This document shows, piece after piece, positions 2,763 through 7,140 of a stretch of 64,000 bases of DNA. The position numbers were made by a program, and so were the translations under genes. The stretch is taken from positions 1-64,000 of the forward strand of contig JAJPJX010000135.1 of NCBI GenBank assembly GCA_021324015.1, given 5' to 3'. The notes below the pieces were generated by a model. That model had not been told where the DNA came from and ran no database searches. It saw only the letters and a list, made by a program, of their open reading frames with translations. This DNA is from Solibacteraceae bacterium. GTDB taxonomy: Bacteria; Acidobacteriota; Terriglobia; Bryobacterales; Bryobacteraceae. The first letter of the stretch is position 1. Every line of letters starts with the position of its first letter.

Positions 2763-3758
2763 TTGCCGAAAGCCAAAATCAGTGCGCTGGGCTGCTATTC
2801 ACCCCCGCGCGTTCTGACGAATCAGGACTTGGAAAAGATGGTCGATACCACCAGCCAGTGGATCGTGGAGCGCACGGGAATCTGTGAGCGCCGCATCGCC
2901 GATCCGGAAACGGCCACTTCGGACATGGCGGCGGAGGCGGCCCGCGCGGCCCTGGAGCAGCGCGGCATCGCCTCTTCGGAGATCGATGCCATTCTGGTGT
3001 GCACCGTGACTCCGGACATGTTCTTCCCCTCCACCGCCTGCCTGGTGCAGAACCGGCTGGGGGCCCGGGGGGCATGGGGTTTCGACCTGGTGGCGGCCTG
3101 CTCCGGATTCGTCTACGGGCTGACCACCGGGGCGCACCTGGTTTCCTCGGGAGCGCACCGGAGAGTATTGGTGATCGGCGCGGACACCATGAGCCGGATC
3201 ATCGATTACACCGACCGGAGCACCTGCATTCTCTTCGGAGACGGCGCGGGAGCCATGTTGCTGGAAGCCTCCGGGGAAAGCGACAACGGCGCGGGGTTCA
3301 TCGATTTCCTGGGAGAGATTGACGGTTCGGGCGGCGATTTCCTGAAGATGCCGGCGGGAGGCAGCCGCCTGCCCGCCAGCGTGGAAACCGTGCAGCAGCG
3401 CCTCCACTATGTGCACCAGGAAGGGCAGCAGGTCTTCAAGTACGCGGTCAAGAAGATGTTCGAAGTCTGCCGCGACCTGTTGCAGCGCAACGGATTCACC
3501 GGGGACGACGTGACCATGATGATTCCACACCAGGCTAACCGGCGGATCATCACGGCGGCGGCCGAGCGGCTCAACATCGGCCCCGACCGGGTGTTGGTGA
3601 ATATCGACCGCTACGGCAACACGACGGCCGCCACCATCCCGCTCGCCACGCAGGACGCCATCGCGCAGGGGCGCCTGAAAAAGGGCGACCTGGTTCTGTT
3701 CGCCGCCGTGGGCGCCGGTTATACGGTCGGCGCCAGCTTGTGGCGCTGGGCCTACTGA
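2763..3758 (+). CDS. fabH: 3-oxoacyl-ACP synthase III (FabH)
   Basis: Condenses acyl-CoA (normally acetyl-CoA) with malonyl-ACP to start fatty-acid synthesis. Conserved catalytic triad visible: Cys in AACSG (about residue 113), His in PHQANRR (about 256) and Asn in RYGNT (about 286); the N-terminus GCYSPPR...LTNQDLEKMVDTT is typical of FabH. I chose TTG 2763, which places the Cys at the usual position (112-113) and follows GAGAGG; an in-frame TTG at 2751 would add four residues. The gene stands alone, with its 3' end overlapping the convergent gene by 7 nt. Confidence 0.93.
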   Translation: MPKAKISALGCYSPPRVLTNQDLEKMVDTTSQWIVERTGICERRIADPETATSDMAAEAARAALEQRGIASSEIDAILVCTVTPDMFFPSTACLVQNRLGARGAWGFDLVAACSGFVYGLTTGAHLVSSGAHRRVLVIGADTMSRIIDYTDRSTCILFGDGAGAMLLEASGESDNGAGFIDFLGEIDGSGGDFLKMPAGGSRLPASVETVQQRLHYVHQEGQQVFKYAVKKMFEVCRDLLQRNGFTGDDVTMMIPHQANRRIITAAAERLNIGPDRVLVNIDRYGNTTAATIPLATQDAIAQGRLKKGDLVLFAAVGAGYTVGASLWRWAY

Positions 3759-5182
3759 GAGGCGCTCGAAGACTCTCCGGGCGCGCTTCCCTTTTTCGCC
3801 TCGCGGAGGCGCACGCCCACCTCGATGTGACGCGGCAAGTCCAGCGCGAGGATGCCGCCGGGGTCGGTGCGCTCCTCCCGCAGTTCTTCGTGGTCGACCT
3901 CCACTTCGTAGATGGAGCGCGGCTTCAGGCCGATCACGAAGACTTCCTCGTCGTCGCCTTTTAGTGTGGCGCGGAACCGGCGCGCGGCCTTTCCGAAGAC
4001 CACCAGTGCGTCCGGCAGCGCGATAGGGCTGGCGGCCGTCTCCAGGTCGAGCACGGAGGGCCGCCCGTCGCGGAACATCTGCAGCCGGCCATCGAAATAG
4101 CCTAGCCACGTGGCGTCGTCGTCCCAACTGGAGCGCACCAGCAGCCGTCCGAACTGTTCGTCGTGATAGACCAGTGGAACATGGAAGTAGCTCAAGCCTG
4201 GCTGATAGGGGTTGGCCCACAGGAATTCGTAAGGAATGCCGAAAGTCCCGCGCATCAGGAAGCGGTCATGCATCAGCCAGCCCTGAAGTACCTGGCTTTC
4301 CGGAGAGTTGACGTCATAGGCCACGATGGAGAGCTCGGCGGCGCGGGAGAGAGCCGCGCGCCGCAAGTCCGGCTCGCCCGGCGTGCCGGAGGCCGGAATG
4401 CGGTATTCGTTTTCCGCCGCCGGATAACTGGCGGGGTAATAGCTCAGCAGCAGGAAGATGGGCAAATCCTTGAAGAACCGCGGCGCGGCCTCGCGCAGCT
4501 CCAGGTTCAGGTTGTCGCGGATCACGTGCAGGAGTTCAAAGAGGGCATAGGTCTCGTCGCGCGGCAAAGGACGGCGGCCTTGCTTGAGCGCGGGGACCGT
4601 GCGGCCCTCCCACCACTCGCGGACCACCTGGGCCAGAACCCGGGAGGACAGTTGCGGATTCTCGTTCTCGCCGGCCAGGGCCACGGCGGCGAAGGTCCGG
4701 TCCCGCACCGCCGACACCGCGGACTGCGCGGACAGTTGCTCGATGCCGCGCGCCAGCTTCCCGGCCAGCGCCCGCGCCTGCGCGGCGTCGAGCAACGGCT
4801 GGCACCAGTCGTACACGATCGCCAGTTGTCGCAGGTCGGAGGCCGAACCCAGGGCCCAGGCGACCGCTTGGCGCCCCACCTCCTGGTTGCCCGACACGCG
4901 GTAGAACAGCGCGTAGGCAAAACCCGGCTCGGGCATGACCGCTTTGCCCGCGATGAGGCTCTCGAACTGCTCCCAGCGTAAGGACTGCCGCTGCCGCTCG
5001 CGCGTCAGAAGCCGCAGCCGCCTGGACCCCAGCAAAATGCGCGGGTGATCGGCGTAGACCGAAAAGCTGTCCTCCCGGGCCTGCGTCCAGGCGGGGGCCG
5101 CGGCCAGGAGGCACAGCAGGGCAAAGACCTGCGGGCTGGGCATTCTTTTCGATTGTGTCATACCGACACAGCGCCCGCCCAC
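3752..5182 (-). CDS. Secreted protein, possible polysaccharide-lyase-like toroid
   Basis: 476 residues as annotated; a signal peptide begins at the in-frame Met of MPSPQVFALLCLLAAAPA (about residue 14), so the true start may be internal. The mature protein opens with ADHPRILL, a motif frequent at the start of heparinase/alginate-lyase-type alpha/alpha-toroid proteins, continues with many helices, and ends with a beta-rich part (about residues 330-460). No lyase active site could be identified with certainty, so substrate and activity are open. Convergent with fabH. Confidence 0.55.
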   Translation of the reverse strand: MGGRCVGMTQSKRMPSPQVFALLCLLAAAPAWTQAREDSFSVYADHPRILLGSRRLRLLTRERQRQSLRWEQFESLIAGKAVMPEPGFAYALFYRVSGNQEVGRQAVAWALGSASDLRQLAIVYDWCQPLLDAAQARALAGKLARGIEQLSAQSAVSAVRDRTFAAVALAGENENPQLSSRVLAQVVREWWEGRTVPALKQGRRPLPRDETYALFELLHVIRDNLNLELREAAPRFFKDLPIFLLLSYYPASYPAAENEYRIPASGTPGEPDLRRAALSRAAELSIVAYDVNSPESQVLQGWLMHDRFLMRGTFGIPYEFLWANPYQPGLSYFHVPLVYHDEQFGRLLVRSSWDDDATWLGYFDGRLQMFRDGRPSVLDLETAASPIALPDALVVFGKAARRFRATLKGDDEEVFVIGLKPRSIYEVEVDHEELREERTDPGGILALDLPRHIEVGVRLREAKKGSAPGESSSASQ

Positions 5183-5245
5183 CCGGCCACAGCCCGCGCC
5201 TCGAATGGAATTGTAAGTCTCTGCAAAATTGCGGGCTGCGCCGAA

Positions 5246-5274
5246 TTGACTCTTGGTGCCCGGATTGCTATTTT
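5246..5274 (+). promoter_or_regulatory. Strong sigma-70-type promoter
   Basis: TTGACT (5246-5251) and TATTTT (5269-5274) are spaced by exactly 17 nt. Transcription would start near 5281, right before the structured RNA at 5281-5439. No protein-coding start follows within 400 bp, so an RNA product is the natural reading. Confidence 0.6.
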
Positions 5275-5280
5275 CGGTGG

Positions 5281-5439
5281 TGAATTGGCGAAGTAACTCT
5301 TAAACCTGCCCTCTGCTGCAACAGGCAGGCGGAAGGAGAGTGAGCGCAGGAGACAACGTGCTTGCGGGAGCCGGTGTTTGAAGTTGCTGCTTGGCTCGCT
5401 ATTCTTCCCTTGTTGGTTGCATCAGAGGGGTTTTTTTTT
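5281..5439 (+). ncRNA. Rod-shaped structured RNA with terminator; 6S-like candidate
   Basis: Nested long-range pairings form a rod: 5309-5322 pairs with 5416-5429 (13 of 14 positions), 5331-5345 with 5394-5408 (GU pairs and a few mismatches), 5346-5349 with 5387-5390 and 5354-5357 with 5383-5386. The closing stem runs straight into nine T (5431-5439), giving an intrinsic terminator. With the promoter at 5246-5274 the transcript is about 160 nt. Size, closing stem and internal loops fit 6S RNA, but I cannot verify the conserved bubble. The SRP RNA apical motif is absent. Confidence 0.5.
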
Positions 5440-5589
5440 GCGCCGATCACGGAATTCTAGCGCTCTCCCCCGGGTTTCCGGTTGCGGCATCGGGCGCTCG
5501 GGCTGTCGTGGCGAAGGAAATGGACGCGGACCTCGCCAGGGTGGCCCGGCGCGGACCCGCCGCCGGACTCCCCAGCCCAACCTGGGCGA

Positions 5590-5646
5590 GCCGCATCGGT
5601 TGAAGGCTCCGGCACGTCTTGGGGGCCGCTCCGATGCGGCTTTTTT
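5590..5646 (+). terminator. Intrinsic terminator in the rimO leader region
   Basis: A perfect 10-bp stem (5590-5599 with 5631-5640) encloses a second stem (5605-5610 with 5622-5627) and is followed by TTTTTT (5641-5646). It lies about 50 bp before rimO. It may end a second GC-rich transcript between 5440 and 5640 (further small stem 5571-5575/5582-5586) or act as an attenuator for rimO; the sequence does not decide. Confidence 0.65.
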
Positions 5647-5697
5647 CGCCCCCGTGTTATCCTCAATAGAGATCACCCTTCTGGCGGAACACACGCA

Positions 5698-7140
5698 TTG
5701 AAAATCGGCTTTGTAAGTCTGGGCTGTCCGAAAAACCTTGTGGACAGCGAAGTGATGATGGGGCAGCTCGTGTCGAGAGGCCACGAACTCACGCCGCACC
5801 CCGACCAGGCCGAGGTGCTGGTGGTGAACACCTGCAGCTTCATCGACCCCGCCAAGCAGGAGTCCGTGGACACCATCCTGGAGATGGCCGAGTACAAGAA
5901 AATCGGCGCGGCCCGCAAGCTGATCGTGGCGGGCTGCCTGGTGGAACGCTACCGCGGCCAGATCCGGGAACAACTGCCGGAAGTGGATGCGGTGCTGGGC
6001 ACCAACGAATTGGATCGCATCGTGGGGCTGTGCGAGGGCTGGGCGGAGGATGGCGCGGCGCCCCCGGCGGATCCCTACCTGTACCACGACCTGACGCCGC
6101 GCGTGCTCTCCACGCCGCGCCATTTCGCCTACCTGAAGATCGCGGAGGGCTGCGATCACCCTTGCAGCTTCTGCGTCATCCCGCAATACCGCGGCAAGTT
6201 CCGCAGCCGGCGCTTCGAATCGGTGATTCAGGAGGCCACCCGGCTGTTCCGGCAGGGAGTGCGGGAAATCAACCTGGTGGGTCAGGACACCACCTGTTAT
6301 GGCGAAGACCTGGGCCTGGAGAACGGGCTGGCGGCGCTGCTCGAGCGCCTGGCGCGGATCGAGACCGCCGGCGAGAAGTGGATCCGCTGTCTCTATGCCT
6401 ACCCCAACAAGGTCTCCGCTCGGCTGCTGGACACCGTGGCGGAGCATCCCGCGCTGGTGAAATACCTGGATATGCCGCTCCAGCACGCCAGCGCCTCCGT
6501 GCTGAAGCGCATGAAACGCGGCGGCTCGGGGGACATTTTCCTCAAGCTCCTGGAACGCGTGCGGCGCGCCATTCCGGGAGTGGCCATCCGCACCAGTTTC
6601 ATCGTGGGCTTCCCGGGAGAGACCGAACGCGATTTTGAGGAGCTGTGCGCGTTTGTGCAGGCGGCGCGTTTCGACCGCCTGGGGGTGTTCTCGTATTCCG
6701 ACGAGGACACCAGCGCCAGCTACCACCTGAACGGCAAGGTCGATGGCCGCACGGTGTATCATCGCAAGCGGAAGCTGATGGCCATCCAGCGGAAGATCTC
6801 GCGCGCGAGGCACGCCGGCATGGTGGGCGCCGAAGTGCCGATCCTGGTAGAGGGCCCTTCGCGGGAAACGGATCTGTTGTGGGAGGGCCGTATGGCCACC
6901 CAGGCTCCGGAAATCGACGGGGTCACGCTGATCAACGACGTGGAGGGAGCCGGACCCGCGCCCGGGCAGATCCGCAGGCTGCGCATCACTGAAGCGCACG
7001 ATTACGACGTCGTGGGGACGCTGCTGGCCCCCTCGGAGACGGAGGCCCGGCGGCCCAGGCCGGCTGCGGAGGCAGCCGCGCAGTTGATCGGGATCGAGCC
7101 CGCCCCCAGGCCCCGCGGTCCCGCGCCTGCCGGCCTATGA
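5698..7140 (+). CDS. rimO: Ribosomal protein S12 methylthiotransferase (RimO)
   Basis: Radical-SAM enzyme that adds a methylthio group to the conserved Asp of ribosomal protein S12. The N-terminal UPF0004 domain carries [10 protein letters not shown] and NTCSF; the radical-SAM cluster CDHPCSFC has Cys near residues 152, 156 and 159; a TRAM-like C-terminus follows. TTG 5698 is chosen because it yields the family N-terminus ([12 protein letters not shown]); upstream in-frame sequence lies in the terminator. 480 residues, longer than the usual ~440 because of an Arg/Pro-rich tail. Overlaps yacG by ATGA, so the genes are translationally coupled. Confidence 0.93.

Follow-up and report, generated by a model that had tools for sequence, protein, structure and literature searches.

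The DNA analysed here, a stretch of 64,000 nucleotides referred to at its full length as the window, carries two structured RNA elements, designated RNA-A and RNA-B, between a divergently oriented gene and rimO, together with putative control signals for the first. The features of this region are the following:

3752-5161, minus strand: divergent gene, product judged by eye to be secreted; its predicted start codon falls within the palindrome
5154-5170, no strand: palindrome TGTGTC-ATACC-GACACA, at which a bEBP (sigma-54 activator) may bind; it overlaps the divergent gene at its predicted start
5246-5274, plus strand: sigma-70-like hexamers TTGACT-17-TATTTT (9/12), overlapping the sigma-54 element; one such in 2 kb against 0.1 expected
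5253-5269, plus strand: predicted sigma-54 promoter TTGG-N10-GCT, with GG at 5255-5256 (-24) and GC at 5267-5268 (-12)
5280-5439, plus strand: RNA-A (sRNA), from a predicted start at about 5280, placed from the promoter, through the last of the nine T
5280-5308, plus strand: conserved 5' leader of RNA-A, including GAAUUG (5282-5287) and without pairing in the RNAalifold consensus
5309-5315, plus strand: 5' strand of the terminal stem P1 (CCCUCUG), pairing with 5423-5429; each commonest pair is kept in 93-98 of 98 distinct sequences
5352-5379, plus strand: apical hairpin GACAACGUGCUUGCGGGAGCCGGUGUUU, with core GCUU-GCGG-GAGC at 5360-5371; the most conserved internal segment
5423-5439, plus strand: 3' strand of P1 and nine-T tail (T at 5431-5439); base of the rod, acting as a predicted intrinsic terminator
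5480-5646, plus strand (outer limits estimated): RNA-B, the other structured element, also conserved; it has a terminator of its own (5590-5599 with about 5631-5640, then a T run)
5698-7140, plus strand: rimO (Pfam UPF0004, Radical_SAM and TRAM_2)

BLASTN searches with a 200-base query detected RNA-A in 19 of 41 related genomes, the window's own included. The covariance-model search that the earlier note had proposed proved productive: model R1, which matches the window at 5304-5435, was run on 150 genomes of the order and located RNA-A in 119, of which 118 are from the window's family and one (G027) is from a second family. Among the 20 listed of the 31 R1-negative genomes, 12 belong to the window's family, one to the second family and seven to a third. 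In a class-wide draw, R1 matched 51 of 250 genomes, and all the positives listed fall in the window's family; on the 150 genomes of the order R1 was run with stricter filters, under which weak copies may be missed. Public records with the pattern are, among the matches listed (at least 80), mostly labelled Bryobacterales, Bryobacteraceae or Acidobacteria. Six oddly labelled public records were tested with R1, of which three were confirmed and three (L176, at 17 bits, L180 and L205) were not; the confirmed records (L168, L185 and L204), labelled Bordetella parapertussis, Arcobacter and Planctomycetota, contain a full RNA-A (95-97 bits), and their labels look wrong.

RNA-A is mostly present in a single copy per genome. 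At least two genomes present a second copy (L110 and L138, 2 of the 116 homologous loci compared below) in which the sigma-54 element is kept and the palindrome is absent. The set of 116 loci leaves out seven R1-positive genomes (G099, G113, G144, G101, G095, G094 and G127) as well as the copy in G014, and 100 of the 116 were used in A5; four antisense matches of a first run were dropped at a stricter cut. The loci are unweighted for relatedness and the homologues share ancestry, so that the counts given here are not counts of independent events. Across the 116 homologues the predicted length of RNA-A has a median of 158 nt (range 132-168), the start in the window being placed 12 nt after the -12 GC.

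As a single strand, positions 5246-5439 fold into an extended rod with CCCUCUG/CAGAGGG as its closing stem (-73.9 kcal/mol, z -2.28), a signal that is only moderate for the single sequence, since 5 of 200 shuffles fold as well. The alignment of 19 homologues revealed an invariant CCCTCTG and a strongly conserved CGTGCTTGCGGGAGCCGGTGTTT, along with conservation of GTTGC..CAGAGGG-T and of the GAATTG leader, in whose core G, A, T and G are invariant in 19/19 sequences. When the 19 were folded individually, the CCCUCUG stem closed all of them and the GCUU/GAGC apical hairpin was seen by eye in 12. Compensatory changes exceeded the shuffled expectation in both alignments: in the MAFFT alignment of 19 sequences, 11 of 27 pairs changed on both sides, against 3.5 after shuffling (0/500 shuffles as many), and in the alignment of 98 distinct sequences pairing is found in 91.5% of cells, with 118 double-change cells against 36.8 +/- 6.1 (0/500). 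The latter alignment, built to fit the structure, is biased in its favour, and the shuffles do not preserve relatedness. The nested long-range pairing described in the earlier note is hence borne out by the rod fold and by the compensatory pairs, and the covariation across related genomes that it had named as a check was found.

RNAalifold recovered the lower stems in both alignments (15 pairs in one; 20 pairs, with another upper pairing, in the other) and drew the apical hairpin in neither. In this hairpin, pairing is kept in 77% of cells for the outer pairs and in 94% for the inner ones, and some cells show double changes. The comparison thus gives good support to the lower stems and weaker support to the apical hairpin; the central part of the rod is too variable to align. 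In 110 of the 116 minimum free energy folds, the largest internal loop has a median of 1 nt on the 5' side and 8.5 nt on the 3' side, the 3' side being the larger in 93. A pseudoknot between the leader and this 3' internal loop was considered and found no support (native -7.0 against swapped -7.3 kcal/mol, 93 loci). The T tail comprises at least four T in 116/116 homologues and at least six in 108/116. The nine-T terminator of the earlier note is therefore present as far as the nine T at 5431-5439 are concerned, but it has no separate short hairpin, its stem being the base of the rod; a terminator scan missed it, probably because that scan requires loops of 3-8.

Several lines of evidence bear on the nature of this element. 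An ATG frame of at least 30 codons occurs in 30/116 transcripts, but a coding gene was rejected because the spacing of two conserved blocks is spread over all three reading phases (35/21/37 in 93 loci). Rfam 15 returned no matches over the whole window at gathering scores; at E up to 10, positions 5100-5700 gave nine weak matches, the best at E 0.75, all far under gathering scores and none of them 6S; and no family fits the RNA-A loci of 12 relatives at E up to 0.5. Searches of an open-licence literature library, to which most subscription papers do not belong, likewise returned no account of RNA-A. Judged by its conservation, RNA-A is a real element, conserved beyond chance, and it is a previously uncatalogued RNA present in most sampled members of one soil-bacterial family. 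The claim of an unannotated rod-shaped RNA of about 160 nt, advanced from the window alone, thus holds across homologues, compensatory pairs and T tail, and in the absence of an Rfam family in the window and in 12 relatives its fallback, a new RNA, is supported.

The promoter region of RNA-A presents a conserved signal of the sigma-54 type, the less common class, to judge from its sequence. A GG-N10-GC element lies within 70 bases upstream of the rod in 116/116 homologues, ending 29-41 nt before it, so that the -24/-12 promoter characteristic of a sigma-54-dependent sRNA was found at every locus. The flanks of the element are also conserved, with T before GG in 103/116, T before GC in 116/116 and A or T after GC in 111/116 homologues; GG and TGC at -24/-12 are given as the conserved sigma-54 promoter elements in a passage of PMC3844500. 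A consensus score of at least 8 was reached by 105/116 homologues against 108/3619 control windows, taking the best copy per locus and with controls that were also required to have A or T after GC, which is absent in 5/116. The window's genome has one match to rpoN. The sigma-70-like hexamers were read in the earlier note as a near-consensus promoter; TTGACT-17-TATTTT is indeed present, at 9/12, but the class was misread. Since only 6/116 homologues score at least 9/12, these hexamers are not a feature of the whole family; they are, though rare, above the control (2/424), so that sigma-70 may also contribute among the close relatives of the window.

Upstream of the putative promoter, TGTGTC-N5-GACACA was identified with at least 10 of 12 bases within 300 bp in 114/116 homologues, whereas of 325 control windows two reach 10 bases and none 11; the two loci without it are the second copies mentioned above. 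The distance from the palindrome to the -24 GG is 62-63 bp in 3 loci, 73-76 bp in 20, 81-90 bp in 90 and 100 bp in one, and no spacing of 64-72 or 77-80 bp occurs in the 114 loci. These distances appear to advance in steps of about 10-11 bp, near one helical turn, as would be expected if a bound protein must face the polymerase, with the qualification that a vector-length test over periods is not sharp (0.74-0.78 for periods of 9.5-11.5) and that the loci are related. The upstream activator site expected of a sigma-54-dependent sRNA was hence found as a putative palindromic site 62-100 bp before the -24 GG; sites of sigma-54 activators often lie some 70-150 bp upstream of the promoter, as stated in part of PMC3844500. 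The window's genome (8.2 Mb) contains the exact palindrome once and another five sites with one mismatch, compared with 2 such sites when the pattern is reversed. PilR, with its GTGTC motif, might be considered as a possible activator.

The palindrome could instead serve the divergent gene, with sigma-70 driving RNA-A. The site overlaps the predicted start of this gene, which lies upstream of RNA-A in 96/116 loci, and TTGACA -35 hexamers occur in three close relatives of the window. We consider this very unlikely, however, given the phased distance to the RNA-A promoter, the lack of conservation of the sigma-70 hexamers, and the 20/116 loci in which no divergent gene is found in the fetched span, several of which nonetheless have a full palindrome. 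The divergent protein matched no Pfam family at E up to 0.001, and its comparison with solved structures returned nothing below E 0.18.

On the other side of RNA-A, the frames vary by locus (moaA-, mdh- and ftsY-like and others, assigned by eye). The placement upstream of rimO claimed in the earlier note is true in the window, but rimO lies within about 1.5 kb of RNA-A in only 1/19 loci, the window's own, and we regard this neighbourhood as incidental. RNA-A might instead act in cis, as a leader or an attenuator for the gene downstream, and in the window rimO does follow on the same strand, 258 nt downstream, with a terminator in between; because downstream frames differ among loci and rimO accompanies a single one of 19, a role in cis is extremely improbable.

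The earlier note had favoured 6S RNA as the identity of the element, a guess that was not borne out. A divergent 6S RNA or a second 6S paralogue, binding sigma-70 polymerase and templating pRNA, would share with RNA-A the rod shape, the similar length and an internal loop near the tip. RF00013, however, did not match positions 5100-5700 at E up to 10, nor the 12 relatives at E up to 0.5. The sole RF00013 match of the window's genome lies at a separate locus (L001, contig C94, 56652-56848), barely over cut-off, and is probably its true 6S RNA. The model matched 17 of 41 genomes at E up to 0.001, 3 over cut-off and 14 below; because 14 of the 17 score under cut-off, RF00013 fits this group of genomes poorly, and a missing match is therefore not absolute. 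Where both are known in the 41 genomes, the RF00013 match and RNA-A are never on the same contig. Moreover, the large open central bubble that is a hallmark of 6S RNA is absent from the predicted RNA-A folds, in which the largest loop is small and one-sided, and the conserved bases concentrate in the apical hairpin and the 5' leader. With the sigma-54 type of promoter added, these observations led us to reject 6S membership and make even a divergent 6S RNA highly improbable.

RNA-A is not the only structured RNA in this region. The R2 model for RNA-B matches the window at 5499-5599 and detected this element in 73/150 genomes; 74 of its 76 matches follow an R1 match on the same strand at a distance of 32-241 nt (median 68). 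The loci of 12 relatives gave no Rfam match for RNA-B, which is a second uncatalogued structured RNA. It contains a conserved GGACGCGG loop, and an extra copy occurs away from RNA-A in two genomes. Pairing between the RNA-A tip and RNA-B was examined at 74 loci and found no support (native -26.3, swapped -26.5, shuffled -25.9).

Directly visible in the compared sequences are a conserved RNA, covarying stems, a sigma-54 element, a phased palindrome and the lack of a conserved downstream gene. In our preferred reading, to which we assign a probability of about 0.77, RNA-A (5280-5439, about 160 nt) is a trans-acting sRNA controlled by an activator and sigma-54, resembling GlmY/GlmZ in its control only. 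Like RNA-A, these sRNAs of the Enterobacteriaceae stand behind a sigma-54 promoter with upstream sites for an enhancer-binding protein. In Salmonella, as described in a passage of PMC3844500, the sigma-70 and sigma-54 promoters of glmY and glmZ overlap fully, which resembles the overlapping hexamers of the window. The QseF site, given as TGTC-N10-GACA in part of PMC8745638, is a further point of resemblance. On the other hand, the palindrome TGTGTC-N5-GACACA is a different one, the phylum is another one, and the GlmY and GlmZ families of Rfam did not match RNA-A (window, 5100-5700 at E up to 10, and 12 relatives).

Other phyla have further trans-acting sRNAs under the control of sigma-54 and an activator, among them Qrr, CrcZ and NrsZ, none of whose Rfam families matched RNA-A at permissive thresholds. 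Among the RNAs predicted in Acidobacteria in PMC2864571, to judge from its table, Acido-1 and Acido-Lenti-1 have Rfam numbers and did not match RNA-A; Solibacter-1, which has no Rfam number in that table, might be the same RNA as RNA-A, although RNA-A is mostly single-copy.

The sequence comparison supports the control of RNA-A well, and for its transcription, the binding of an activator, action in trans, mode of action and targets we infer the following course. A dedicated enhancer-binding protein would bind the palindrome at 5154-5170, loop out about 100 bases and open sigma-54 polymerase at 5253-5269. In the resulting transcript of about 160 nt, a single-stranded 5' leader would precede the rod; the base of the rod would serve as a Rho-independent terminator, and its tip would be the conserved hairpin. 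RNA-A would then act in trans, most likely by pairing of its leader with mRNAs, the open leader being the best candidate for a seed and the apical hairpin the best candidate for a protein contact, or otherwise a second contact.

Complements of both segments were sought as perfect 12-13-base matches. The leader complement had matches in 25/25 genomes, with 13 in the window's own against 1 for the reversed pattern, a control that is not clean in that neighbour pairs differ; the hairpin complement had matches in 20/25, RNA-A itself included. BLASTP on part of the matches (30 leader loci and 18 hairpin loci, RNA-A loci excluded) returned no conserved target, the sampled loci lying mostly in unrelated genes, with one close-relative pair and one weakly similar trio sharing a gene. 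This result, together with the very conserved tip, would also suit a decoy RNA whose apical hairpin binds and titrates an RNA-binding protein, for instance of the CsrA or RapZ type; GlmY is itself termed a decoy sRNA in part of PMC7073468. The leader, however, is conserved too, and CsrA and RapZ are suggested here by analogy; a decoy role seems to us rather unlikely.

Returning to a trans-acting sRNA under an activator and sigma-54, the activator might have further targets. When 41 genomes were scanned for the palindrome at sigma-54 spacing with no other requirement, it occurred in 17 places and the reversed pattern in none. Fifteen of the 17 are RNA-A, 14 by position and one (G014) at 49 bits, and the remaining two are flanked by a FecR-domain gene on one side and, in divergent orientation, by a beta-propeller-like gene on the other, the beta-propeller matches being under Pfam cut-offs. 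A homologous pair is present in the window's genome, its genes being 53% and 50% identical to those of L151; it is accompanied by a palindrome with one mismatch and, 86 bp further on, by a sigma-54-like element. Taken alone this site would be weak, because five one-mismatch sites were inspected on two strands. At L145, L149 and L151, a FecR-domain gene thus stands divergent from a beta-propeller-like gene with a similar palindrome and sigma-54-like element, a possible second target, and the same activator may also switch this gene pair. An activator shared by RNA-A and the FecR loci is plausible, though three loci are few. It is a more speculative proposal, and one that we think unlikely as a whole, that RNA-A and RNA-B form a two-RNA cassette under one sigma-54 activator with a private enhancer and, with the FecR/beta-propeller operon, constitute a dedicated cell-surface regulon of the Bryobacteraceae in which the RNAs act unlike GlmY/GlmZ.

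To our knowledge, hardly any RNA regulation has been described for the Bryobacteraceae, common as these bacteria are in soil, and a search of the open-licence literature returned no description of it. An sRNA retained this widely, whose promoter and palindrome can be read from the sequence, offers a direct entry to RNA regulation in this family, to the activator involved and to its regulon.
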